NCBI GenBank assembly: GCA_029858565.1 | Contig: JAOUEV010000005.1 | Location: forward strand, 47,739-111,738 | Reading direction: 5' to 3' | Source: Nitrospirota bacterium | GTDB lineage: Bacteria; Nitrospirota; UBA9217 | DNA length: 64,000 nucleotides | Part shown: positions 48,236 through 52,202 of the stretch, piece by piece | Layout: every line of letters starts with the position of its first letter | Numbering within the stretch: the first letter of the stretch is position 1 | The notes under the pieces: model-generated | The model's input: only the letters and a program-made list of their open reading frames with translations | Databases searched by the model: none | Told to the model about the DNA's origin: nothing | Position numbers and translations under genes: made by a program

Positions 48236-50145
48236 CTACTTGAGCTCCGACGCGGGGTCGTTCGGCGCCCTGAGCGCGGCATTGGAGGTGAACAGGAGCA
48301 CCTGGGTCTTTGTACCGAGTACGCGAAGCAGCTGGCATGCCTGCTGCTGGCGCGGAGGGTCCATGCCCGCGAAAGGATCGTCAAGCAGGAACGGCAGCCT
48401 TCGCTTCCCCACGATCGCCTCGACAATGGCCGCGCGCAAGCAGAAGCAGGCCATGAGCCGGGTCCCGTCGCTCAGGGTATCAAAGGACAGCCGGTTCCCC
48501 GCCGCGTCCTGAACAACCGGATGCCCTTCCTGGCCGGTCTCGATCTTGACGTACCGTCCGCCGCTCACCGCGGTGATATTCCGCTGCGCCGCGCTCTCGA
48601 CGGCAGGCACCAGTATCTCCATCTCGATCCCGCTGATCCGGCTCGCGAGAGCGACCAGATCGTGCAGGTCCGAACCGCCGGCCCCCCCGGGTGCCGCGGA
48701 GGGCGCGCTGAAATCGGTCATTGCGCCGAAATCGGCGAAACCAGGGTCCTGCTGCACAGCCGGCGCGACAGCTCCCTCGATCCGTTCGATCTCCTGCCGG
48801 AGGCTGTAAGTGTCCACTGCGTACTTTGCCACGGCCCTGGACGCCTGTTCGAGGGTCGCGACCTCGGCCTGCTGGGCCGCGTATTCCGCCCGGACATCTT
48901 CCTCTGCCTGGCCGCCGAGGGCCATCCGCTGCTGTTCCGCGGCCTCCTCGCGCATTTCCCGGAAATACCGGTAATTGTCCGCCTTTTCCCTGAGCTCAGC
49001 CGCGCTCTTCGACTCCGTGGCCTTCATGTGCTTCAGGATGACTGCCCCGGCGTCCTGGAATTTCTTCTCAATTGCCGCCCGTTCCTTTACCAGCCCGTCG
49101 ATCTCCTTCTGCACTGCCGTATGCTGCGCATTCTTCCGGGAACTGTTGTACCAGCCCGCGACGATCAGGAGCAGCGACGCCAGGATCAGGATGGGGAAAT
49201 AGATCGCCTGCTCGTCCAACAGGATGAACAGGCCCAGGATCAGCGCGATGCCGCCCATGGCGGCGCCGGCAATGAAAAGTTTCTCGGTCACCATGTTCGC
49301 CACGGGAAGGGTGTCGCGCTGCATTGTCAGCGCTTCGATGTCCTTCTCCACGTCGTTCGTCTTGGCGGCCCGCTCGTTCTCTTCCTGTTCGTGGGTGCTG
49401 ATCAGCTCGGCAAGATTTTCGGGAAGCCCTTTGCACGCGGAAAGCTCTGCGAGCTGCGTCTCGACCTCTTCGAGCCGTCCCCTGCTCTCTTCCAGCCGCT
49501 CCAGCTTCTTGGCGATCTCGGTCAACCTTACACGGGCGGCCTCGGCCTTGTACTCGGCATCAGCAGCATCTTCGGCCTTCTGCAGCGTCTCCTTGAGCTC
49601 GGCAAGCTTCCTCTCCTGGGCAGCGTTCCTCCCCGCCGGAGCGGGGGCGGGAGTCGGCGCTGCGGCGCGCCGCGGCGTGTCCGTCGAGGGAACCGCTGCC
49701 GCTGTCGACGGGGCGGTACAGGCATCGCGCCGGAACACCAGCAGGCGGCCGTAATCGTCTGCAGTGATCCCGGGCAGCAGACCGTCCATGAACTGCGCAG
49801 TGCTGTCCCAGTCCTTGTGAAGAAGGGAGAATTCCTTGGTGGAAGCGTTGTACTTGGAGAGGTTGACGGCGCGCCTGGTGAGGTCCTGGATCACCCGGTA
49901 GTACGACCCGTCGTCGGAGTAGACGACAAGCGCGCCCCGCGATCCCTCGGGAGCTGCCCGCGACACCAGGATATCCATCTTCGACGGATCGTTCACCGGG
50001 AACAGAAGGAGGACAATGCTGTCCACCGACGTCGTTTTGCCCGACTCGTTCCCGGCGCTGATAATATTGAACCCACCTTGAAACCTGAGGCGTGCCAACT
50101 GCTGAAAACCGCGAATGCCCTGCATCACCAGTTCCACCAGGAACA
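48236..50145 (-). CDS. SMC/RecF-like AAA ATPase with two predicted TM helices between ATPase halves (YhaN-like)
   Basis: Walker A SAGNESGKTTSVDS, hydrophobic segments LFIAGAAMGGIALILGLFILL and IYFPILILASLLLIVAGW, signature LSDGTRLMACFCLR, Walker B LPFLLDDPFAGMD. Start MFLVELVMQG at 50145. Confidence 0.82.
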
Positions 50146-50230
50146 TAGAGCGCACTCCTTTCGCCACGGAGACTTGAGTGATAACTATAGCGCAAGTGCG
50201 CTCAAAGCGCAACAAGGAAAAATGGGATAA

Positions 50231-51748: not shown

Positions 51749-51892
51749 GGAAAGAAAACTCTAAACGCTTCTTCCGGCAGGGTCAAGGGGTTTTTTTATT
51801 ATTGCGGTGCTTCTTCCGGCCTTGACAATCTATGCTATACTATGGATAGAGATCAGGTCAGGATGGGGTCTTTGAAAACTTGCATGCAGAAG

Positions 51893-52202
51893 AGGCGTTG
51901 CCGAACCCACACCAGAAGGTGTACACATGTTGACCCGTTACGAGGGGAATAAGGCAGCGGTTGCACGGGCGCCGGGATCGGAGCAGAAGCCACAAGTTGA
52001 GCGGCCAGCTCTCCGGTTCGCTGTACAAGGACCCGGCCAGCCGTAAGAGCCGAAAGCCCCGAAGTTCCGGTCGACGCGGGATTTAGCAGTATGCTTCATC
52101 GGTTTTGCTGGTCAGAACCAAAGAAGTGGAGGTTGTATCACCCGCGGTCACCGGAACTCGACGGAACGTTAACCAATCGGTTCGGTGGCAACGCCTTTTT
52201 TT
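51893..52202 (+). ncRNA. Candidate structured non-coding RNA, class unknown
   Basis: Closing helix AGGCGTTGCC (51893-51902)/GGCAACGCCT (52187-52196) followed by T7; nested helices ACACC-AGAA-GGTGT (51909-51922), GCCGGG/CCCGGC (51971-51976/52032-52037), AGTTCCGGT/ACCGGAACT (52063-52071/52150-52158), CGCGGG/CCCGCG (52075-52080/52141-52146). Confidence 0.7.

Follow-up and report, generated by a model that had tools for sequence, protein, structure and literature searches.

Does the region between the divergent trpE/pabB and glgC, two unrelated metabolic genes of an uncultured Nitrospirota bacterium, encode an RNA of its own, or is it an unusually long leader of the gene downstream? We addressed this question in a 64,000-nucleotide stretch of contig JAOUEV010000005.1 (the window; positions below refer to it), for which the original prediction had proposed a novel structured RNA of about 310 nucleotides (nt). 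We found that the locus is probably the gene for an undescribed, trans-acting non-coding RNA (ncRNA) of ~304 nt, designated type A, in which closure of the terminal helix (P1) would be aided by NusB-S10 tethered at a boxA site in the leader. Comparison of the copies identified a putative promoter, a leader with boxA, P1 enclosing two long arms, a run of uridines (U-run) and a set of paralogues lacking boxA (type B). From these sequences we infer that the RNA is transcribed, processed and functional. The features of the locus are as follows.

51893-52196, + strand: RNA core, the putative mature RNA, from P1 to P1 (alignment of 12 A-type copies, z = -4.1, covariation)
51833-51841, + strand: extended -10 promoter TGCTATACT, predicted +1 near 51848, TGnTATAnT in 12/12 A-type homologues
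51867-51880, + strand: boxA antitermination site GGTCTTTGAAAACT, with 14/14 identity to the boxA of this genome's 16S leader
51893-51902 and 51903-51907, + strand: 5' strand of P1, AGGCGTTGCC followed by GAACC, pairing with 52187-52196 and 52179-52183
51909-51922, + strand: P2 hairpin ACACC-AGAA-GGTGT, 94% of cells paired
51929-51939, + strand: 5' strand of the long-range helix P3, GTTGACCCGTT, pairing with 52160-52164 and 52168-52173
51944-52060, + strand: arm I, with P4 (GGGG/CCCC), P5 (GGC-GCGG/CCGT-GCC), P6, P7 and the P8 hairpin
52063-52158, + strand: arm II, with the long helix P9 (52063-52080/52141-52158) and the P10/P11 hairpin cap (52093-52127)
52179-52183 and 52187-52196, within 52179-52196, + strand: 3' strand of P1, GGTTC followed by GGCAACGCCT
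52196-52202, + strand: U-run of seven Ts immediately 3' of P1, read from the sequence
51758-51786, - strand: predicted trpE/pabB promoter, TTGACC-17-TAGAGT, divergent from the RNA promoter

Homologues of the RNA were recovered by blastn, one of the checks named in the original prediction, in most genomes of the same Nitrospirota family. Searching 396 Nitrospirota genomes with a sequence profile (R1) gave a member in each of the family's 14 genomes and no convincing match outside it. Two further profiles built with more divergent copies (R2 and R3) agreed with R1; because these profiles used sequence only and no structure, distant homologues may have been missed. The 14 genomes contain 12 A copies, the type seen in the window, and nine dispersed B paralogues, which were sought within Nitrospirota (G001:C68, G004:C179, G006:C58, G007:C80/C119, G010:C6, G010:C14, G010:C143, G010:C179 and G012:C193). 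No A copy was detected in G004 and G010, which are 74% and 83% complete. Three weak matches in other Nitrospirota (G124, G085 and G088) were read and had no RNA ends and looked coding; the other weak matches outside the family reached at best 6.8e-4 (R1) and 4.3e-4 (R3). Scanning 85,462 species with a pattern returned only Nitrospirota metagenome-assembled genomes (e.g., GWC2_57_13 and UBA9217) and one Mycobacterium match (L046), which was dismissed as chance, being coding-like and missing the rest of the RNA. Among the compared genomes, the next relatives beyond the family share only the phylum with it, and the family may thus be the sole one in its order or class.

The A copies share one fold. 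RNAalifold applied to the alignment of the 12 copies gave a single nested structure of 64 pairs, in which P1 is followed by the P2 hairpin, P3, and then arm I (P4-P8) and arm II (P9-P11). Excluding two small weak stems left 60 pairs for the covariation count; 95.1% of their cells held standard pairs, and 22 pairs showed compensatory change. On all five measures used, the observed value exceeded every one of 500 shuffles. The fold thus covaries strongly across the 12 copies; the original prediction had named compensatory changes in the long helices as potential support. Controls with the structure slid along the alignment were 35-43% paired, a comparison that favors the actual fold since it was derived from the same 12 sequences, of which G008, G011 and G013 are closely similar. 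The folding energy of the core was -128.0 kcal/mol vs -106.8 +/- 5.1 for dinucleotide shuffles (0/300 as low), and 3 of 5000 shuffles gave a helix of 9 bp or more joining the two ends.

Individual helices were consistent with this picture. P1 is 15 bp long, with GAACC/GGTTC extending the 10-bp helix noticed earlier, and 99-100% of its cells are paired among the 12 homologues, including A-U/U-A and C-G/U-A exchanges. A hairpin occupies the place of P2 in most B copies too, and the P3 duplex, present in 12/12 homologues, is longer in the B copies. Within arm I, the GCGG/CCGT part of P5 shows double changes in all four pairs, and P6 can be formed in every homologue from differing sequences. Within arm II, the P9 duplex has an energy of -17 to -32 kcal/mol in 12/12 homologues, and five of the seven P11 pairs show double changes. 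Pairwise duplex predictions recovered P3, P4/P5, P6 and P9 in each homologue despite 52-72% identity to the window. Every element named in the original prediction (the helices, the AGAA hairpin, the seven Ts, TATACT and TTGACA) was found where it had been placed. The register of one helix had to be revised. GCCGGG/CCCGGC (51971-51976/52032-52037) is present and joins the right segments of arm I, but the conserved register lies ~4 nt upstream, where CGGG (51967-51970) pairs with CCCG; the former probably represents an alternative pairing peculiar to the window sequence. A pseudoknot between the P8 loop (GUUGA) and the 3' strand of P3 (UCAAC), checked by eye, was not supported, as changes in the P3 partner are uncompensated in G001, G002, G005 and G008.

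The flanking signals support independent transcription of the ~304-nt RNA from its own predicted extended -10 promoter. TATACT (51836-51841) lies inside the extended -10 box, while TTGACA (51822-51827) is unconserved among homologues and too near that box. We found no local terminator hairpin beside the U-run of the window RNA. The sole substantial stem adjoining the U-run is P1, which must therefore provide the stem. The RNA is also non-coding. A protein-coding gene was rejected because the majority of indels that separate the homologues have lengths not divisible by 3 and would shift the frame. Of the ~103 codons of the core, the longest stretch without a stop covered 29-96 aa, in frames that differ between homologues, and no reading frame crossed the whole core in any homologue.

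The boxA/Nus system has so far been described for ribosomal RNA (rRNA), arrays of clustered regularly interspaced short palindromic repeats (CRISPR), phage nut sites and some mRNAs. The boxA in the leader of the window RNA, absent from the original prediction, lies ~20 nt downstream of the predicted start. The exact sequence GRTCTTTGAMAACT occurs three times in the whole 3.9 Mb genome, in the RNA leader, the 16S leader and the 16S-23S spacer, and the genes for transfer-messenger RNA (tmRNA), RNase P RNA and 6S RNA are not among these sites. The boxA of the spacer, GGTCTTTGACAACT, is one base off that of the RNA leader, and the boxA of the 16S leader is the same in G006, G008 and G011. The A-type leaders retain boxA within an otherwise poorly conserved stretch, and 11 of the 12 A copies have 14-25 nt between it and P1, counted from the end of the 10-nt boxA core. 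The predicted transcript thus carries, near its 5' end, a boxA matching that of the organism's own rRNA. For E. coli, boxA has been described as both necessary and sufficient to form the antitermination complex, and its tethering is thought to aid closure of the leader-trailer helix (PMC10250234). In the 16S leader of Enterobacteriaceae, boxC follows boxA by 18-19 nt (PMC10250234).

As the most economical model, we propose that NusB-S10 binds the leader boxA and would thereby tether the 5' end of the RNA to RNA polymerase. The tether could shield the untranslated transcript from Rho and keep the first P1 strand close to the exit channel. P1 would then snap shut once its partner strand emerges ~290 nt later, which would complete the fold and favor termination at the U-run. 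Once mature, the RNA would act in trans as a structural, ribonucleoprotein (RNP)-type or scaffold RNA, probably together with proteins, and not as the leader of a neighboring gene. Several points weigh against this mechanism. Antitermination of the rRNA type might, in principle, counteract the U-run as a terminator; boxA is degenerate in G002 and lies 39 nt from P1 in G005; and the B copies, which have no boxA, indicate that the tether is not essential to the fold.

The B copies are informative about the ends of the RNA, as most of them begin exactly at P1. In the copies with an adjacent -10 box (e.g., G006, three of the G010 copies and G012), P1 starts 6-8 nt downstream of that box, at the point where transcription would be expected to initiate; the leader of the G004 copy is ~33 nt. 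Several B copies have a separate hairpin terminator a short way downstream. A start at P1 combined with these terminators suggests that P1 is part of the mature RNA and not merely a terminator stem. The B copies lie beside unrelated genes, which, together with the start at P1, points to a self-contained RNA acting in trans. G007 carries an A copy and, ~74 nt beyond it, a B copy (L136, G007:C80 45300-46059, and L135), and this tandem suggests an origin by duplication. The contig G007:C80 ends inside this B copy, which seems to resume on C119 with one base different.

To ask whether the RNA belongs to a known family, we scanned the window at E<=5 and six homologous loci at E<=2 against Rfam 15 (4227 models). 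The RNA region of the window matched no family even at this permissive threshold, and at or near the copies in the six loci only weak matches under the gathering score were seen. This Rfam scan, itself proposed in the original prediction, together with the covarying fold and the conserved promoter and 3' end, supports the claim of a novel, independently transcribed, structured RNA distinct from RNase P RNA, signal recognition particle (SRP) RNA and tmRNA. A diverged version of one of these housekeeping RNAs, or of 6S RNA, would have a comparable length, a closing helix and a single conserved copy per genome, as the A type does. We nevertheless consider this explanation very improbable, given the lack of Rfam matches in the window and the six loci and the strong scores of three of these RNAs elsewhere in the genome: tmRNA (RF00023) at G000:C22:16045-16394 with 202.5 bits, RNase P RNA (RF00010) at C140:4496-4862 with 276 bits and 6S RNA (RF00013) at C27:51021-51197 with 89.3 bits. 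The covariance models of these three did not match at the RNA locus. The SRP RNA gene of the genome was not located, and the RNA locus is without any Rfam match. No description of the RNA was found in the open-licence papers that were searched, and the main text of a list of candidate RNAs does not mention Nitrospira (PMC2864571).

The genomic contexts of the copies bear on the remaining explanations. The original prediction had left room for a long glgC leader, in which P1 and the U-run would form a signal-controlled terminator or attenuator. The gene is indeed next downstream in the window, on the same strand and 168 nt past the U-run, but glgC follows only 3 of the 12 A copies (window, G001 and G012), and at the other A loci the downstream genes differ, sit on the opposite strand or fall beyond the contig end. 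As the downstream gene varies and the RNA carries a separate U-run at its 3' end, with B copies in unrelated contexts, we rejected this idea, which has next to no likelihood. The conserved neighbor is instead the divergent trpE/pabB, found next to the RNA at 12/12 A loci. The RNA might regulate this gene, either by way of the promoter region that the two share or by acting in trans on the trpE mRNA. The location of the B copies elsewhere argues against such a role, which we regard as unlikely. The dispersal of the B copies, up to four per genome (G010), the A/B tandem in G007 and an IS110-type-transposase-like start beside the G012 copy would fit a mobile or guide-RNA system, such as an omega RNA, a bridge RNA or an intron-like element. 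However, the copies have no mobile gene in common, Rfam gave no HEARO or intron match at the RNA, and no match was found in viral contigs (exact pattern) or in phages and plasmids (blastn). The A copy is, moreover, stably and vertically linked to trpE, and a spreading element is about as unlikely as regulation of trpE, ranking just below it. The presence of a perfect rRNA-type boxA on just one transcript other than rRNA could also mean that the leader regulates the Nus machinery or acts as a sponge for it, titrating NusB/S10 to signal growth rate. Conservation of the body and the lack of boxA in the B copies suggest that the body is the functional part, which makes such a role highly unlikely.

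We rate the trans-acting ncRNA as a new family of a known broad kind, the large structured bacterial ncRNAs, with an unusual boxA leader. OLE, ROOL and GOLLD are longer than the Nitrospirota RNA. Like these and raiA, it is highly structured, apparently independently transcribed and not attached to a downstream gene; it differs in having no Rfam match to any of them, in its restriction to one family and in its boxA leader (PMC12286853, PMC11706538). The leader has a close parallel in that of rRNA operons (rrnTAC; PMC10250234): its boxA is identical to the one in this genome's 16S leader and is followed, at E. coli-like spacing, by the 5' strand of a long-range helix that closes the transcript. 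The Nitrospirota RNA, in contrast, has a body of ~300 nt without rRNA match and a 3' end with its own U-run. A boxA upstream of CRISPR arrays has been reported (Stringer et al., as cited in PMC7862264), placing boxA on another long untranslated non-rRNA transcript, but the Nitrospirota RNA is a single folded RNA and not a repeat array. Non-coding RNAs were explicitly outside the scope of one survey of boxA targets (PMC5725501).

The locus would link a stand-alone ncRNA to the boxA/Nus system, and finding so large a bacterial RNA that covaries, is conserved throughout its lineage and lacks an Rfam relative is a genuine gain. The boxA leader suggests an important cellular RNA. A tentative extension, which we consider possible but doubtful, is that the RNA represents a new class of cellular RNA machine, a housekeeping RNA of an entire lineage within Nitrospirota that uses the rRNA antitermination and folding machinery for co-transcriptional RNP or RNA-only assembly, with the boxA-free paralogues serving other partners. 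The RNA may also offer a natural small test object for the antitermination complex as a chaperone of long-range RNA helices, as it combines boxA and one closing helix in 300 nt and its boxA-free paralogues serve as natural controls.

The surroundings of the copies showed some further features. Both neighboring genes in the window were confirmed by Pfam. The GGTCAAG upstream of the RNA, kept in most homologues, is the -35 element of the predicted trpE promoter, and the two divergent promoters lie within ~85 bp. In several related genomes, trpE is accompanied by a gene resembling thymidylate kinase and by a conserved SMC-like ATPase gene (in the window at 48236-50215, - strand; weak SMC_N/AAA_23 match). 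Near the B copies, the IS110-type-transposase-like start in G012 (VCVGIDYHKRYAV..., read by eye) follows a short B copy (L105, G012:C193, downstream of 4977) and could be an insertion beside it. A Group II intron domain scoring exactly at the gathering score (40 bits) lies ~3.7 kb from the G006 copy (L084, G006:C58, 8903-8983, - strand). In G004, the B copy is convergent with rtcB-like and archease-like (RNA repair) genes, recognized by eye (L081, G004:C179, 5172-7196 in RNA orientation), and is the sole copy with such neighbors.
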